A stretch of 64,000 nucleotides of DNA, from contig NZ_JAQISW010000001.1 in assembly GCF_028618435.1 (NCBI RefSeq), forward strand, positions 1 through 64,000, given 5' to 3'. This document shows positions 18,929 through 41,445 of the stretch, piece after piece. The DNA is from Bartonella sp. MM73XJBT.G (lineage in GTDB: Bacteria; Pseudomonadota; Alphaproteobacteria; Rhizobiales; Rhizobiaceae). The notes beneath the pieces were generated by a model, which was not told the origin of the DNA, ran no database searches, and saw nothing but the letters and a program-made list of their open reading frames with translations. A program made the translations under genes and the position numbers. The stretch's first letter is position 1. The number at the start of each line of letters is the position of its first letter.

Positions 18929-19441
18929 CTATTCCCTATCACAAGATTGATTCTTTTGTTTCAATCGAACAATCAAATCAACATGTGAAATTTCCATACC
19001 CTCTGGTGGTGTAGGCAAATTTCCAATAATAGGAAATTCTTCTAAATTGCAAGGAATATCAAGAATATGATTTTCACCTTCTATATAAAAATGGTAGTGA
19101 TCAGAGGTATTTGTATCAAACCAAGTCTTCGAACCCTCTACAGCAATAATCCGTAATAATCCCGCTTCCGTAAATTGATGAAGCGTATTGTAAACCGTTG
19201 CTAAGGATACAGGAACACCTACCCTCACCGCTTCCTCATAGAGCTCTTCAGCAGTAATATGACGATTGCCTTGAGAAAAAATCATATGTGCAAGTTCTAA
19301 CCGTTGACGTGTTGGGCGCAACCCATTTTCACGCAAACGTTTTTCTAACATAGAAGTGGAATAATACTGCATACCCTCTCCACACTCTTTTGTGGACTGT
19401 TGCTCTTCATTCATATCTAAATTGTCTGCACTTCCTGACAT
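18929..19441 (-). CDS. irr: Iron response regulator Irr (Fur family)
   Basis: A Fur-superfamily transcription factor. The winged-helix DNA-binding part is at about residues 35-100 (LRPTRQRLELAHMIFSQGNRHITAEELYEEA... SLATVYNTLHQFTEAGLL), followed by the dimerisation/regulatory domain. Its position divergent from fabA-fabB and its sequence match rhizobial Irr, a haem-responsive regulator active under iron limitation. The N-terminal GCPWHD haem motif of Bradyrhizobium is absent. The usual His cluster of the C-domain reads DHYHFYIEGEN (H115, Y116, H117). I start at the ATG at 19441 (170 residues). An ATG at 19372, with a better ribosome site (GGAGAGG) and 147 residues, is a real alternative; a TTG at 19510 also exists. 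Confidence 0.88.
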   Translation of the reverse strand: MSGSADNLDMNEEQQSTKECGEGMQYYSTSMLEKRLRENGLRPTRQRLELAHMIFSQGNRHITAEELYEEAVRVGVPVSLATVYNTLHQFTEAGLLRIIAVEGSKTWFDTNTSDHYHFYIEGENHILDIPCNLEEFPIIGNLPTPPEGMEISHVDLIVRLKQKNQSCDRE

Positions 19442-19673
19442 ATTACAAACCAAAATATCTTCCTGCTTTAAGTAAGATAAAAATAAAAAAATGGGAACAG
19501 GATGGTACAATCTTGTATTCCATTTTTAAATAATTATCTATGTAGAATACATAAAAAAGGGCTTTTGTCATTAAAAATGATATAAAATCATTTCCCTCTC
19601 TTTAAAATTTGCTCTAAAAGTAGATTGGGGAAAAGCGCAGAAATAAAGATATATGCAAATAAATGGAGTAACC

Positions 19674-35525: not shown

Positions 35526-38213
35526 TTAAACAGCTAGCTTACGCAAGACATATTGCAAAATTCCACCATGATGCAAATAATCTAGCTCATCTTCAGTATC
35601 AACACGGCATAACAATGGAACGGTTTTTACCGTACCATCAGAAAAAGTAATTTTTGCTACGGTCTTTTGACGAGGTTTCAAGTTATGAATACCCTCAATC
35701 GTTACCTTTTCATCGCCCTTTAAGCCTAAAGACTTCCAACTTAGCCCCTCCTCAAAGACAAAAGGAACAATACCCATACCAACAAGATTAGAGCGATGAA
35801 TCCTTTCAAAAGATTGTACAATCACTGCTTTGATACCAAGAAGATTAGTCCCCTTGGCGGCCCAATCACGTGATGATCCATTGCCATATTCAATACCTGC
35901 AAAAACAACGAGTGGAATACCTTCTTTTTTATACGTCATTGCTGCATCGTAAATGGTTTGTTCTACCGCTGAGGGATAATGAATCGTATAACCGCCTTCT
36001 CGACCATTTTCTCCTAACATGAAATTACGAATGCGAATATTGGCAAAGGTCCCACGAACCATAACTTCATGATTCCCACGGCGTGTCCCATATTGATTAA
36101 AATTAGCAACGTTAACACCATGATCCATTAAATACTTTCCAGCAGGAGAAGCGGCCTTAATAGAACCAGCAGGAGAAATATGATCTGTCGTGATTTTATC
36201 ACCAAATAAACCTAAAATTCGTGCCTCCTTAATATCTGATAAAATATCTGGTGTTTTCTGCATATCATCAAAATATGGTGGATTACGAACATAGGTGGAT
36301 TGCTCATCCCAAGAATAGGTAGCCCCCGTAGGAATCTGAACTTTTTGCCAATTTTCATCACCCTTAAACACATCAGCATACTTTTCAGCAAAAACCTTAC
36401 GTGTGACATTTTCTTCGATAAACGCCTGTATTTCTTGAGAAGTTGGCCAAATATCTCTTAAGTAAACCGGTTGACCATCTAAATCTTCACCAAGAGGTTC
36501 TTTGGTTAAATCTTTACACACCGTCCCGACAAGCGCATGTGCAACAACTAACGGGGGTGAAGCTAAATAATTTGCTTGTACATCAGGAGAGACACGCCCT
36601 TCAAAATTACGATTTCCTGAAAGAACTGCAGCAGCAATAACACCATTGTCATTAATCGTTTTGGAAATAGCTGGATGCAAAGGACCAGAATTCCCAATAC
36701 ATGTTGTGCACCCAAACCCTACTAAATTAAATCCTAATGCATCTAAATCTTTTTGCAGACCAGAATTTTTAAGGTAAGCTTCAACAACTTGTGAACCAGG
36801 TGCGAGAGAAGTTTTTACCCATGGTTTGCTTTTTAGACCTTTTGCTACAGCATTTCGTGCCAAAAGACCTGCTGCAATAAGAACACTTGGATTCGATGTA
36901 TTTGTACAAGAAGTAATCGCAGCAATCACCACATCACCATGACTAAGCGTATATCCTTCACCTTCAACCGGATAATGCTCATCTTGTCCTGAAGTTTTCT
37001 TATAGTCTTCAACCAATGCCTTCCCAAAACCTTGCCCAACATTTTCCAATGCAATACGCCCTTCCGGACGTTTAGGACCAGCCATAGAAGGAACAACTGT
37101 TCCCATATCTAATTCAATGGTATCGCTAAAAACGGGATGAGCCACCCTTTCGTCATGCCACATCCCTTGCGCTTTGGAGTAAGCCTCGACTAAGGCAATC
37201 CGATTTTCATCACGCCCTGTCATGTTGAGATAACGCACTGTCTCCTTATCAATTGGAAAAAAACCACAGGTTGCTCCATATTCAGGAGCCATATTCCCAA
37301 TCGTCGCCCGATCAGCAAGGGTCATATGCTCCAAACCAGGGCCAAAAAATTCCACAAATTTACCAACAACACCCTTCTGCCGGAGTATTTGGGTTACCGT
37401 TAATACGAGATCGGTGGCTGTGACACCTTCTTTAAGTTTTCCTGTTAGGCGAAAACCAATGACTTCAGGTAACAACATAGAAACGGGTTGGCCTAACATT
37501 GCCGCTTCGGCTTCAATGCCGCCAACACCCCAACCTAAAACCCCCAAACCATTGACCATCGTCGTATGCGAATCAGTTCCCACACAGGTATCCGGATAAA
37601 CCGTCTCATCCCCCTCTTCATTCTTCATCCACACACATTGTGCTAAATATTCGAGATTAACCTGATGACAAATCCCTGTTCCTGGAGGAACAACACGAAA
37701 ATTTTGAAAGGCTTGTTGCCCCCATTTCAGAAAACGATAACGCTCACCATTGCGTTCATATTCATGCTCAACATTTTCCTTAAAAGCCGTAGGAGTGCCA
37801 AAATCATCAACAATAACTGAGTGATCAATAACAAGATCAACAGGTATGAGAGGGTTAATTTTTTCAGCGTTCCCACCAAGTTTGACCATAGCATCACGCA
37901 TTGCAGAAAGATCAACAACCGCCGGAACACCCGTAAAATCTTGCATAAGAACACGTGCAGGACGGTAAGCGATTTCTGCCCCTGCGCTCCCTTTGTCGCT
38001 TAACCACTTAGAAACATTGAGGATGTCTTCTTTTTTAACTGTGCGCCCATCTTCAAAGCGCAATAAATTTTCGAGAATAACTTTCATCGAAAACGGTAAA
38101 TGCGAAATGCCTTCAAGTCCATTCTTCTCCGCTTCGATTAAGCTATAATAAGTATATTCTTTGCCACCAACCTTTAACGTTCTGCGACAATTAAAGCTAT
38201 CAATGTGAGTCAT
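35526..38213 (-). CDS. acnA: Aconitate hydratase A
   Basis: An 895-residue iron-sulfur enzyme of the TCA cycle interconverting citrate and isocitrate. The three 4Fe-4S ligands are present: Cys436 in SCTNTSNPS and Cys502/Cys505 in GFGCTTCIGNSG. Other motifs are SHTTMVNGLGVLGWGVGGIEAEA near residue 215 and the swivel-domain GIEYGNGSSRDWAAKG near residue 768. Length and N-terminus match the AcnA/IRP class. It is a single gene, divergent from ccmA. An Irr-like box lies about 200 bases upstream; acnA is a predicted Irr target in related Rhizobiales. Confidence 0.97.
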   Translation of the reverse strand: MTHIDSFNCRRTLKVGGKEYTYYSLIEAEKNGLEGISHLPFSMKVILENLLRFEDGRTVKKEDILNVSKWLSDKGSAGAEIAYRPARVLMQDFTGVPAVVDLSAMRDAMVKLGGNAEKINPLIPVDLVIDHSVIVDDFGTPTAFKENVEHEYERNGERYRFLKWGQQAFQNFRVVPPGTGICHQVNLEYLAQCVWMKNEEGDETVYPDTCVGTDSHTTMVNGLGVLGWGVGGIEAEAAMLGQPVSMLLPEVIGFRLTGKLKEGVTATDLVLTVTQILRQKGVVGKFVEFFGPGLEHMTLADRATIGNMAPEYGATCGFFPIDKETVRYLNMTGRDENRIALVEAYSKAQGMWHDERVAHPVFSDTIELDMGTVVPSMAGPKRPEGRIALENVGQGFGKALVEDYKKTSGQDEHYPVEGEGYTLSHGDVVIAAITSCTNTSNPSVLIAAGLLARNAVAKGLKSKPWVKTSLAPGSQVVEAYLKNSGLQKDLDALGFNLVGFGCTTCIGNSGPLHPAISKTINDNGVIAAAVLSGNRNFEGRVSPDVQANYLASPPLVVAHALVGTVCKDLTKEPLGEDLDGQPVYLRDIWPTSQEIQAFIEENVTRKVFAEKYADVFKGDENWQKVQIPTGATYSWDEQSTYVRNPPYFDDMQKTPDILSDIKEARILGLFGDKITTDHISPAGSIKAASPAGKYLMDHGVNVANFNQYGTRRGNHEVMVRGTFANIRIRNFMLGENGREGGYTIHYPSAVEQTIYDAAMTYKKEGIPLVVFAGIEYGNGSSRDWAAKGTNLLGIKAVIVQSFERIHRSNLVGMGIVPFVFEEGLSWKSLGLKGDEKVTIEGIHNLKPRQKTVAKITFSDGTVKTVPLLCRVDTEDELDYLHHGGILQYVLRKLAV

Positions 38214-38405
38214 GACTGTCCACCCTCATACTATAAACCACCCAATTTCCAGGAATGAACAACACAAACTACGAGTCAAGGTCGCAGCTTGAGCGCAGAC
38301 GCAATTACCTCCGCCATCCATTTCCCCCTCCACCTTTTATAGGTAAATGCGGAAATCAGCGCCAAAAACCATTCTACACCAGATCTTGATGTAACGTATC
38401 CCTTA

Positions 38406-38431
38406 TAGAACTATTTCTAGAACTATTCTAG
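38406..38431. promoter_or_regulatory. Irr-like operator between acnA and ccmA
   Basis: CTAGAACTATTCTAG (38417-38431) is a perfect 6-3-6 palindrome with core TAGAA-N3-TTCTA, close to the Irr box (ICE) described for Rhizobiales. A second TAGAACTAT begins 12 bases to the left (38406). The irr gene itself is in this window. The distance is 78 bases to the ccmA ATG and about 200 to the acnA ATG. Confidence 0.5.
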
Positions 38432-38437
38432 GGACAA

Positions 38438-38466
38438 TTGCATAAAAAAACGTGTTTTTTATGCAA
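38438..38466. repeat. Perfect 12-bp inverted repeat upstream of ccmA
   Basis: TTGCATAAAAAA (38438-38449) and TTTTTTATGCAA (38455-38466) flank loop ACGTG, 42 bases before the ccmA ATG. It may be an operator, or a hairpin in the ccm leader. There is no T-run after it on the plus strand, so it is a poor terminator in that direction. Confidence 0.6.
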
Positions 38467-38508
38467 TAATGCAATAAAGAATAGGGAAATATAAAAATAG
38501 GCAATCAC

Positions 38509-39120
38509 ATGGTGTTATCAGGCAAAGATTTAGCAGCTTACAGAAACGGAGAAATTCTGTTCAAAGATCTTTCTTTTTGTTTATTTCCACAGCAACTGAT
38601 GACAATCACCGGACCAAATGGCATCGGAAAATCTACATTACTGCGAATCGTTGTCGGTCTTATTGAAGCTGCTGAAGGCCATATCGTACTTAAAGACGAT
38701 GAACAAAGATACCCTGTTACAACTGCGTGTCATTATCTCGGGTCTCAAAATGCCATGAAACCCCGCTTATCTGTCATTGATAATTTGCAATTTTGGGCAG
38801 AGTTTTATGGTCAACCTCTTTACTCCCCCTATGAAGCCCTTACCGATATTGACCTTGCTGATCTTGAATCTTTACCTTTTAACACTCTGTCAACTGGGCA
38901 ACAAAGGCGTATCGCTCTTGCTCGTCTTTTACTTTCCTATCGTCCTATTTGGGTTTTAGATGAACCAATATCAGGACTTGATAGCTATGCTCAAAAACGT
39001 CTTGCTCGTATTTTTCAACGTCATCTCAATCAAGGGGGTATGATTATCGCCGCCACCCATAATTCCTTAGGTCTTCCAGAAAACCATACTATTGCTCTGG
39101 AAAAATTTTTACCTCTCTAG
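38509..39120 (+). CDS. ccmA: Haem exporter ATP-binding protein CcmA
   Basis: A 203-residue ABC ATPase of cytochrome c maturation system I. Walker A is GPNGIGKST at about residue 35, the ABC signature is STGQQRRIALARL, and Walker B is PIWVLDEPISGLD. With CcmB, CcmC and CcmD it releases holo-CcmE, delivering haem for covalent attachment to cytochrome c. It is first in the ccmABCDG operon, 11 bases before ccmB, with an ATG at 38509 after AGG. An Irr-like site lies just upstream. Confidence 0.95.
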   Translation: MVLSGKDLAAYRNGEILFKDLSFCLFPQQLMTITGPNGIGKSTLLRIVVGLIEAAEGHIVLKDDEQRYPVTTACHYLGSQNAMKPRLSVIDNLQFWAEFYGQPLYSPYEALTDIDLADLESLPFNTLSTGQQRRIALARLLLSYRPIWVLDEPISGLDSYAQKRLARIFQRHLNQGGMIIAATHNSLGLPENHTIALEKFLPL

Positions 39121-39131
39121 GAGAGCAGAAT

Positions 39132-39797
39132 ATGAAAGCACTGTTCTGGCGTGATCTTAAACTACTCTTAACGTCACAAACCTCTTCGCTAACAGGATTA
39201 TTGTTTTTCATCGCTGTTGTAATTATAATCCCCTTTGCCATTGGACCAGATCCAAAAATTCTTGCACAAATAGGTCCAGGGATATTGTGGTTTGGAGCCC
39301 TTCTCGCAGGACTTCTTAATCTGAACAAACTTTTTCAAATCGATCGCGATGATGGCAATCTCGACCAATTTATCCTTTCAGGACAAAGACAAAGTTTTAT
39401 GCTGATCGTCTTTACTAAATGCATCGCCCATTGGGTAGGAACGATGCTTCCTCTCATTTTTACCACGCCTATTTTAGCCCTCATGCTCCACTTAGATATC
39501 ACGATAACTTGTACAACAATACTTACCCTTTTATGCGGAACACCAGCTATTATTTTTATTGGCGCCATAGGAGCAGCACTTGCAAGCTCATTGTTACATA
39601 GCACGCTTCTTATTTTCATCATTATCTTGCCGTGGATCATTCCAGTTATGATTTTTGGCGTTTCAGCGGCGACAGCGCCAACAAATCCAAATGCCTCTTT
39701 TCTTACTTCCTTGGCTCTTCTTAGCGCTTTTTCACTTTCTTTGAGTCTCTTTAGCTCCTTTGTTGCCTCTCTAACGCTCAAGCTTTTATCAGAATAA
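39132..39797 (+). CDS. ccmB: Haem exporter membrane protein CcmB
   Basis: A 221-residue inner-membrane protein with six predicted helices, the permease partner of CcmA. The N-terminus (FWRDLKLLLTSQTSSLTGLLFFIAVVIIIPFAIGP) and the segment GILWFGALLAGLLNLNKLFQIDRDDGNLDQ are typical of CcmB. It lies 11 bases after ccmA and 37 before the ccmC start I use. Length matches the family (about 220). Confidence 0.95.
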   Translation: MKALFWRDLKLLLTSQTSSLTGLLFFIAVVIIIPFAIGPDPKILAQIGPGILWFGALLAGLLNLNKLFQIDRDDGNLDQFILSGQRQSFMLIVFTKCIAHWVGTMLPLIFTTPILALMLHLDITITCTTILTLLCGTPAIIFIGAIGAALASSLLHSTLLIFIIILPWIIPVMIFGVSAATAPTNPNASFLTSLALLSAFSLSLSLFSSFVASLTLKLLSE

Positions 39798-39834
39798 TAA
39801 AAGATGATTGCCGCATAGAAAAATTCCCCTTATT

Positions 39835-40623
39835 ATGAATTTCATGAATGAATTATCGCCCGCATATAAAATGAGGTCACTCCCTATAAGTTTTGCCCGT
39901 TTTATGAAAATAAGCAAAATCATTTTACCATGGCTCGCCAGCATAACGTTATGTCTTCTGATCTTAGGGCTTATTTTCGTGATGCATTCACCAGACGACT
40001 ATCAACAGGGTATGACTGTTAAGATTATGTACCTTCATGTCCCTTTTGCGTGGTTGTCTACATTCTGTTATATAACGATGAGTGCAGCAGCATTAGGAAA
40101 TTTGATTTGGAAATATCATCTTGCTGATATAGCTCTCAAATGTGGGGCGCCCATTGGAGCAATTTTTACTGCCTTGGCCCTCATGACGGGAGCGTTTTGG
40201 GGGCGCCCTACATGGGGAACATGGTGGGTATGGGATGCACGGTTAACATCGGTTTTAATTCTGCTTTTTATCTACCTTGCCATTATCTTGCTTGGACGTG
40301 CTTTTGACAATCAAGTAAAAGCCGCTCGCGCGACTTCAATTCTTACCCTTGTTGGCTTTGTTAATATCCCTATTATTAAGTTTTCCGTGAATTGGTGGAA
40401 TACATTGCATCAACCAGCCTCCTTATTACGTGCTGGAGGACCAACAATCGACAATGCTATGTTATGGCCTCTTATAACCATGTTATTTTGTTTCATCTTC
40501 ATGTTTATTGCGCTCTATTTGATGGCTATGCGAAATGAAATCAATAGCCGTTATATCAAAATACTTCAGATTAAAAAATCCCGTCGTGCACAACAACAGG
40601 ACTCTTCATCATGCTTGACCTAA
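39835..40623 (+). CDS. ccmC: Haem-handling membrane protein CcmC
   Basis: A membrane protein of about 262 residues with six helices, which presents haem to CcmE in the periplasm. It has the tryptophan-rich WWD signature in GRPTWGTWWVWDARLTS and conserved periplasmic histidines (MYLHVPFAW and NTLHQPAS). The start is uncertain: ATG codons at 39835, 39844 and 39871 and a TTG at 39808 are in frame without a strong ribosome site, and the family usually begins close to the first helix. It overlaps ccmD by 13 bases. Confidence 0.94.
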   Translation: MNFMNELSPAYKMRSLPISFARFMKISKIILPWLASITLCLLILGLIFVMHSPDDYQQGMTVKIMYLHVPFAWLSTFCYITMSAAALGNLIWKYHLADIALKCGAPIGAIFTALALMTGAFWGRPTWGTWWVWDARLTSVLILLFIYLAIILLGRAFDNQVKAARATSILTLVGFVNIPIIKFSVNWWNTLHQPASLLRAGGPTIDNAMLWPLITMLFCFIFMFIALYLMAMRNEINSRYIKILQIKKSRRAQQQDSSSCLT

Positions 40624-40844
40624 ATGGCATCCACAGCGGACTTTTAGGAAACTTATCTCAGAAAATCGATTTTTTCCTTGGTACCCTTAAACACAAGCAA
40701 ATTGTTGTTTTAAGCTATACGCTTTCTGCAATATCCCTACTCTGTCTTATTGGCTATATTCTTTGCAAAGCCCTATACCAAAAAAACACTCTCCAGCAGC
40801 TAAACAAAAAAGAGCTTTCAAAAAAAGAAAAATATAATGAATAA
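40611..40844 (+). CDS. ccmD: Haem exporter small subunit CcmD
   Basis: A 77-residue protein with one membrane helix (about residues 33-55) and a charged C-terminal tail rich in Lys. The family is short and poorly conserved; position between ccmC and ccmG, overlapping both by a few bases, is the main evidence. CcmD stabilises the CcmABC-CcmE complex and its release step. An N-terminal stretch of about 30 residues before the helix makes it slightly longer than many CcmD proteins. Confidence 0.8.
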   Translation: MLDLNGIHSGLLGNLSQKIDFFLGTLKHKQIVVLSYTLSAISLLCLIGYILCKALYQKNTLQQLNKKELSKKEKYNE

Positions 40845-41445
40845 CGTTCCTCCAAAACTTAAAAAAAATATATCTTTGCCTGTTTTCTTTGTTCTTTTTG
40901 GACCATTTGTGCTTTTTCTTCTTCTCATGGTGTTTTTTTTCAACTTTATGCATAAAAAATACCCGCAAGACCCTTCTCTTCTTCCAAATGCATTGGCTGG
41001 AAAACCAGCCCCCGAGATACACCTTCCTCTTCTTAATAAGGACAGTTATCTTCATTCAAAACAGTTTAAAGGACGTGTCACATTGATCAATTTTTGGGGG
41101 TCTTGGTGTTTACCCTGTCGCGAAGAACATCCTCTTCTTATGAAAATTGCACAAGATAAACGTTTTGATCTGATTGGTATTAATTATAAGGATAACAAAG
41201 CAAACGCACTGCGCTTTTTAAATCTTTTTGGTAATCCTTTTAAATTGATTGGCTTTGATGCTTTAGGATATACAGCTATTGACTGGGGGGTATATGGACC
41301 ACCAGAAACCTTTCTCTTGAATAAAGAGAGCATCATTATCGCTAAACATGTTGGCCCCCTAACATGGAAAATTTATCAAAAAAAAATTCTCCCCAAAATT
41401 GAACAAGCAATCGTAATAGAAGAAAATAAAATATCAACATATTGA
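40837..41445 (+). CDS. ccmG: Thiol:disulfide interchange protein CcmG/DsbE
   Basis: A 202-residue membrane-anchored periplasmic thioredoxin. One helix (about residues 15-38) anchors it. The thioredoxin domain carries the redox pair Cys91-Leu-Pro-Cys94 in FWGSWCLPCREEHP and the cis-Pro loop GVYGPPETFLL. It keeps apocytochrome c CXXCH cysteines reduced before haem attachment. It overlaps ccmD by eight bases and ends the operon. The remaining ccm genes (ccmE, ccmF, ccmH) are not in this window. Confidence 0.95.
   Translation: MNNVPPKLKKNISLPVFFVLFGPFVLFLLLMVFFFNFMHKKYPQDPSLLPNALAGKPAPEIHLPLLNKDSYLHSKQFKGRVTLINFWGSWCLPCREEHPLLMKIAQDKRFDLIGINYKDNKANALRFLNLFGNPFKLIGFDALGYTAIDWGVYGPPETFLLNKESIIIAKHVGPLTWKIYQKKILPKIEQAIVIEENKISTY

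Follow-up and report, generated by a model that had tools for sequence, protein, structure and literature searches.

A probable Irr operator at the acnA promoter of Bartonella, followed by a structured acnA leader RNA

In the stretch of DNA analysed here (the window; 64,000 nucleotides of Bartonella sp. MM73XJBT.G), acnA and ccmA are divergently oriented, with 295 bases between them. A preliminary description had placed an Irr-like operator between this Fe-S enzyme gene and the haem-handling operon that begins with ccmA, and had noted that irr is encoded in the same window. The gene models confirm the genes named there, and the features are as follows.

18929 to 19510, minus strand: irr, Fur-family iron response regulator (NCBIfam NF045678 and NF045677 above cut-off; Pfam FUR)
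35526 to 38213, minus strand: acnA, aconitate hydratase, an Fe-S enzyme (NCBIfam TIGR01341, 1358 bits)
38403 to 38408, minus strand: predicted acnA -10 element (CTATAA), from conservation, overlapping the left TAGAACTAT
38416 to 38432, no strand assigned: putative Irr box (ICE-type operator) TCTAGAACTATTCTAGG, the top Irr-matrix position of the window at 18.6 bits
38426 to 38431, minus strand: predicted acnA -35 element (CTAGAA), within the box, from a family alignment in which most rows are CTRGAA-N17-CTATAT-like
38509 to 39120, plus strand: ccmA, first gene of the ccm operon (NCBIfam TIGR01189; Pfam)
39132 to 39797, plus strand: ccmB, ccm operon
39808 to 40623, plus strand: ccmC-type gene, ccm operon
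40837 to 41445, plus strand: thioredoxin-fold CcmG-type gene, ccm operon

The irr product scores 197 bits with the NCBIfam IrrA model, against a cut-off of 150. A separate palindrome, TATGTAGAATACATA, lies between irr and fabA at 19539-19553, and might be an irr operator of another type. On the ccm side, CcmA shows 69-92% identity in 36 named loci, all of them from Bartonella, the best match being that of B. elizabethae (92%), and the next named locus falls to 35%.

The site itself, CTAGAACTATTCTAG, is located at 38417-38431 and had been described as a perfect palindrome. An inverted repeat is indeed present at that place, but its 6-bp arms, CTAGAA/TTCTAG, flank a CTA centre that is not palindromic, and the gap to the ccmA ATG at 38509 measures 77 bases rather than the 78 given earlier. 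Such symmetry is common: the window contains 27 inverted repeats of the 6-bp/N3 type, compared with 21-42 in five Markov simulations, and the 2.23-Mb genome contains 4 exact copies of the TAGAANNNTTCTA core, compared with 9 of a reversed control. Palindromicity alone therefore carries no weight, and we rejected the idea that the palindrome is significant by itself. The site stands above chance because it matches the Irr boxes of other genes and because it is conserved. The second copy of TAGAACTAT was found where it had been reported, at 38406-38414, which puts it 12 bases left of the copy at 38418; it includes the predicted acnA -10, and it was rejected as a second Irr box, all starts from 38400 to 38424 other than 38416 falling short of 3 bits. 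Sites for LexA (GTTC-N7-GTTC), EcfG, Fur, RirA (IRO), CtrA and OxyR were considered and set aside on sequence grounds.

The similarity to Irr boxes was scored with a weight matrix trained on 20 mbfA and 20 rirA boxes of relatives, and on zero acnA sites. The mbfA boxes came from the 24 of 27 loci at which a box was found (the 3 box-less loci were left out), less 5 identical or near-identical boxes and with the addition of the box from the Bartonella sp. MM73XJBT.G genome. The 20 rirA boxes came from 29 loci, after exclusion of 5 without a box, 3 with a box far upstream and 1 repeat from a near relative. All of the training boxes had themselves been chosen for likeness to the TTTAGAANNNTTCTAAA consensus. 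With this matrix, 38416-38432 ranks first among all positions of the 64-kb window (the runner-up has 14.8 bits), and none of approximately 1,000,000 simulated positions reached 18.6 bits. In the 36 named Bartonella loci (307 kb), there are 36 matches of at least 14 bits, one per locus and each of them the acnA–ccmA box, and besides these 36 sites only 7 positions have at least 9 bits. The resemblance of the TAGAA-N3-TTCTA core to the Irr box, originally put forward by inspection, thus holds when it is measured against the boxes of other genes, both within the window and across the genus. The runner-up position, 1168-1184 (CCTATAATTGTTCTAAA), lies beyond the 3' end of a minus-strand open reading frame of 844 aa, whose end is at 1254, and has no obvious target gene.

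The likeness to the Irr box or ICE of Rhizobiales, as seen at mbfA and rirA, extends from the core to a promoter position compatible with repression, the presence of irr in the genome and the conservation through the genus. On the local scale, the sites differ: the ICE at mbfA reads TTTAGAATTATTCTAAA, while the acnA–ccmA site TCTAGAACTATTCTAGG carries an outer C and G and, unlike the sites at mbfA and rirA, overlaps the predicted acnA -35 in a divergent region. The canonical box TTTAGAANNNTTCTAAA has exactly one mismatch-free copy in the genome, 17 bases before an mbfA-like gene, whose product has a Pfam VIT1 domain and scores 301 bits with the NCBIfam MbfA model, below the cut-off of 450. Of the 71 Bartonella genomes, 50 likewise have a single copy, counted irrespective of the adjoining gene. 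Upstream of rirA, no recognisable Irr box was found in the Bartonella sp. MM73XJBT.G genome or in G024, and therefore the Irr regulon is not constant. The Bartonella genomes G003, G056 and G063, like much of the family, have an Irr box at this place.

Conservation at acnA–ccmA, which had been proposed as a check on the operator, is strict within the genus. The box is present in 70 of 70 Bartonella acnA–ccmA sequences, from 69 of 71 genomes, in the forms TAGAACTATTCTA (56 sequences), TGGAACTGTTCCA (13) and TAGAATTATTCTA (1); the regular expression used for this count was composed after the sequences had been viewed. Two genomes were not read for the upstream site, namely G038, whose ccmA contains a stop, and G057, where the locus meets a contig edge; a second ccmA copy in G051 was not fetched, and that in G052 was counted as a sequence and not as a genome. 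In the 56 genomes outside the TGGAACTGTTCCA clade, the 13 core columns of the box have a mean identity of 99.9%, compared with 75-78% in the flanks. The ccmA match of G038 (G038:C1:132414-133021) falls into two overlapping pieces with an in-frame stop, a condition seen in this one Bartonella genome.

Outside the genus, the divergent acnA–ccmA pair was found in 37 of the genomes read from the same family; 22 of these carry a box scoring 9 bits or more, and the other 15 have no box at that level. Among the 22 boxes, 21 are at the same place and one (G100) is in another register. These genomes belong to a sample of 40 from the 119 same-family genomes outside Bartonella, which was non-random and consisted mostly of those with the best-matching ccmA; we take the family to be Rhizobiaceae in the GTDB sense. 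At the level of the order, 61 genomes were searched and 58 matched, yielding 30 loci, and none of the 28 that come from other families has a strong box. As their best score is just 10.8 bits, the strong box looks like a trait of the family.

The box coincides with what appears to be the acnA promoter. On the acnA strand, the window reads CTAGAA-N17-CTATAA, with the box covering the first hexamer. Most rows of the family alignment have CTATA at the -10, and no row is gapped between the -35 and -10 hexamers; this alignment omits 9 of the 40 family loci, which lack the hairpin used as an anchor, and includes 12 added Bartonella rows. Outside the TGGAACTGTTCCA clade, all 56 of 56 sequences agree in the TTATA columns of the -10. 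A scan for the E. coli consensus (TTGACA/TATAAT) found no promoter, and the acnA -35 is therefore deduced from conservation. Of the 22 scoring family genomes, 20 have 12-13 bases between the box and the acnA -10, a nearly fixed spacing, while the distance to ccmA across the same 22 ranges from 57 to 197 bases. Furthermore, in the three of 40 family genomes where ccmA is more than 650 bases from acnA, none has a box at ccmA; one of the three (G174) has a 10.4-bit site near acnA, although these cases are few. The fixed spacing, the loose ccmA distance and the lack of a box at the separated ccmA genes therefore tie the box to acnA. Of the earlier suggestion that both genes are Irr targets, only the acnA half is thus supported.

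The proposal that Irr controls ccmA, or ccmA as well, thereby linking cytochrome c maturation to haem status, nevertheless has some evidence to build on. In all Bartonella sequences read, 77-100 bases separate the box from the ccmA match downstream of it, and the divergent acnA–ccmA linkage is old: the genes are within 650 bases of each other in 37 of 40 family genomes, and linkage was seen within the 1500 bases examined in 25 of the 28 loci of other families. Against this, in addition to the variable distance and the unboxed ccmA genes mentioned above, no consensus promoter was found on the ccmA side, and our literature search returned no report connecting Irr with ccm. We consider such control unlikely, while a side effect of Irr on the divergent ccm operon is possible. 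Just before ccmA, at 38437-38467, there is also an inverted repeat, ATTGCATAAAAAA..TTTTTTATGCAAT, which by eye is intact in its own species and a few others, and broken in many. Intact repeats of a different sequence stand at this place in G022, in G027 (which has an insertion) and in G053, perhaps as a result of repeated template-switch events.

Could the conserved block be the acnA core promoter only, with CTRGAA as the -35, CTATAT as the -10 and an incidental palindrome? Some features of the alignment point that way. The half-site on the -35 side is kept in 36-42 of 43 rows per position (A and G pooled at one), and the inner arm is less conserved; the two arms do not covary beyond what the column make-up predicts (684 of 5000 shuffles were as high, 43 aligned rows), and the -10 is retained in lineages with a negative box score. 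However, the alphaproteobacterial -35/-10 consensus is CTTGAC/CTATAT, of which CTRGAA is a poor version, and yet it is kept. Moreover, the inner arm TTYYA is kept in 34-42 of 43 rows although it lies in the spacer, which a sigma factor should not read; the TCTGGAA half-site recurs at rirA; and scores of 14-24 bits with the matrix are seldom reached at other places. A promoter without an operator is thus an improbable account of the block.

The one clear joint change of both arms is found in a single Bartonella clade, which carries TCTGGAACTGTTCCAGA, built of TCTGGAA half-sites. Its 13 genomes have a diverged CcmA (53-56% identity), and are presumably the insect-gut clade of Bartonella. A TCTGGAA or ACTGGAA half-site occurs in 11 of the 29 rirA upstream regions of the family, and CTGGAA is also present upstream of katG in G140 and within the G142 mbfA box. 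Because it recurs at these places, CTGGAA is most likely an accepted Irr half-site. Neither form of the site appears to mark a separate regulon, as no second exact copy was found in the six genomes searched: there were no further exact copies of CTAGAACTATTCTAG in G000, G026 and G024, and none of CTGGAACNGTTCCAG in G003, G056 and G063, G056 having one single-mismatch copy. With two mismatches allowed, CTGGAACNGTTCCAG gave 9, 8 and 5 forward matches, compared with 14, 26 and 3 for the reversed control (G003, G056 and G063, respectively), and the counts for both site forms exceeded the reversed controls in G063 alone. That a regulator other than Irr binds a related palindrome, with the TGGAACTGTTCCA form as its own consensus in one clade, is very improbable: the mbfA of this clade does retain TTTAGAATAATTCTAAT whereas its acnA–ccmA site reads TCTGGAACTGTTCCAGA, but the CTGGAA half-site belongs to rirA boxes, the katG upstream region and an mbfA box as well, no separate regulon was seen in the three clade genomes, with no second exact copy and one single-mismatch copy, and we know of no other factor with such a site.

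We therefore return to Irr. Judged by its sequence, 38416-38432 is likely to be a conserved Irr-type operator, chiefly of the acnA promoter. In the mechanism we propose, haem-free Irr would bind the box when iron or haem is short, and the bound protein would cover the -35 region and exclude RNA polymerase from acnA. Less acnA expression would mean less of an abundant Fe-S enzyme, so that iron would be spared. When haem is plentiful, Irr would leave the box and acnA would be transcribed; the acnA mRNA would then carry a conserved structured leader, which may add a second, post-transcriptional control.

A repressor placed on the -35 would agree with the reported action of Irr, which in the species studied is repression when iron is depleted (PMC3413700). 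The same paper states that Rhodobacter sphaeroides Irr binds the mbfA promoter and that, after Rudolph et al. 2006, acnA has a putative Irr box in Bradyrhizobium japonicum; the present site is comparable to the latter at the level of gene and regulator, and the idea that Irr targets acnA predates this analysis, having been put forward for Bradyrhizobium. In Bartonella, Irr is reported to work via the H-box at the hbp and hut genes (PMC3799009 and PMC4102455), a case that shares genus and regulator with the present site. According to other papers, rirA is apparently among the Irr-repressed genes (PMC7762939), and in intracellular Brucella AcnA is down and Irr is up (PMC5587712). Two published observations count against our reading: PMC3413700 gives no significant iron response for R. 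sphaeroides acnA, and the main text of a Brucella Irr DAP-seq study (PMC10374146), which concerns seven genes, does not contain the terms acn, aconit or ccm. Our literature search recognised no report of an acnA–ccm Irr site, which may stand in the tables of Rodionov 2006 or Rudolph 2006. An Irr operator at this promoter would make aconitase, and with it the entrance to the TCA cycle, part of the likely Irr regulon in Bartonella, which are users of host haem, and the same arrangement of acnA and box is common to many relatives in the family.

Downstream of the promoter, the region between the -10 and the acnA start codon has its own pattern of conservation, with the following features.

38214 to 38396, minus strand: acnA 5' leader RNA, from alignment and covariation, with the 5' end placed by the -10
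38218 to 38225, minus strand: acnA Shine-Dalgarno segment GGGTGGAC, which can pair with the P2 3' strand at 38253-38260 (8 of 8 pairs in the window)
38249 to 38326, minus strand: leader core, with P2 (38316-38324 with 38252-38260) and P3 (38311-38314 with 38295-38298)
38375 to 38393, minus strand: leader hairpin P1 (TACATC / GGTGTA), 5 of 6 pairs changed on both sides among 44 sequences

In the alignment of 44 leaders, 95.6% of the cells in the helices P1 (6 pairs), P2 (9) and P3 (4) are paired, and pairing falls to 38-45% when the partner strand is slid as a control. Two-sided changes occur in 12 of the 19 pairs, a number as high in 2 of 500 shuffles, and the covariation score was reached by none of 500 shuffles. 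The family rows of this alignment came from 37 genomes with an adjacent acnA, from which G098, G076, G168, G086 (insertion) and G180 were excluded; of the 17 Bartonella leaders tried, those of G007, G006, G002, G016 (start not located by pattern) and G022 are out. By eye, the G002 leader is without the core and the G016 leader is truncated, which speaks against a strict conservation of the leader. The P3 loop is nearly constant outside the main Bartonella group, being mostly AAATGRCYGYAC. The comparative evidence supports well the conclusion that the acnA leader would fold as a structured RNA with covarying pairs.

A covariance model of the P2–P3 core scores 62.5 bits in the window, whose sequence was in the training set, and this is the sole match there at E-values up to 1. 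Within one search, it matches each of the 36 named Bartonella loci, of which 5 had served for training, and none of 16 others. A further 45 loci gave 7 matches, all of which are acnA leaders of the family (two of these genomes having contributed to the training); the 28 order-level loci are all unmatched, as are the family genomes G168 and G076. Rfam 15 yielded no match up to E = 1 for the acnA leader in the 14 sources searched, and the literature search found no description of such a leader; the RNA is probably undescribed. As a leader on acnA, it is a concrete target for studying the translational control of aconitase.

The 3' strand of P2 has a second possible partner in Bartonella and some relatives, being complementary to the Shine-Dalgarno segment as well. 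This alternative stem forms 141 of 144 pairs in 18 chosen sequences, compared with 25-57% paired in slid controls; shuffles average 139.3 pairs and 268 of 2000 were as high, so its covariation is not significant. In 11 of 17 sequences, the energies of the two leader folds differ by no more than 4 kcal/mol, but in the window the sequestering fold is favoured by 7.8 kcal/mol. Most of the leader in the window (38205-38386) is not unusually stable, with a z-score of -1.3. By hypothesis, the leader could act as a switch that hides the ribosome site. In this respect it resembles translational riboswitches and attenuators, as it likewise has two possible stems that share one strand, with the second stem over the Shine-Dalgarno. 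Unlike the known leaders that hide a ribosome site, it lacks an Rfam family, and its second stem rests on complementarity rather than on covariation.

Combining both parts, we tentatively propose, as a possibility that we hold to be rather doubtful, that two iron-linked controls are stacked on acnA of this family: Irr acting at the -35, together with a family-specific leader of approximately 180 nt, in which the P2 3' strand would toggle between the core stem and the Shine-Dalgarno stem in response to a signal. This signal could conceivably be cluster-free aconitase itself, citrate or iron. If true, the stacked control would be a bacterial parallel to the aconitase/IRP switch.

Some other features of the leader were noted. 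A leader peptide starting at an ATG in the core was considered and dropped; by eye, 6 of the 8 Bartonella rows of the alignment outside the TGGAACTGTTCCA clade are without this ATG. The promoter and terminator scan returned one terminator-like hairpin, which is located inside the acnA leader and is followed by a U-rich stretch (38265-38291, minus strand); this element could be an attenuator. Finally, the leader of G086 (L142) measures 334 nt from the hairpin to acnA, compared with 158-189 nt in the other 33 family leaders measured, and therefore contains an insertion of roughly 160 nt.
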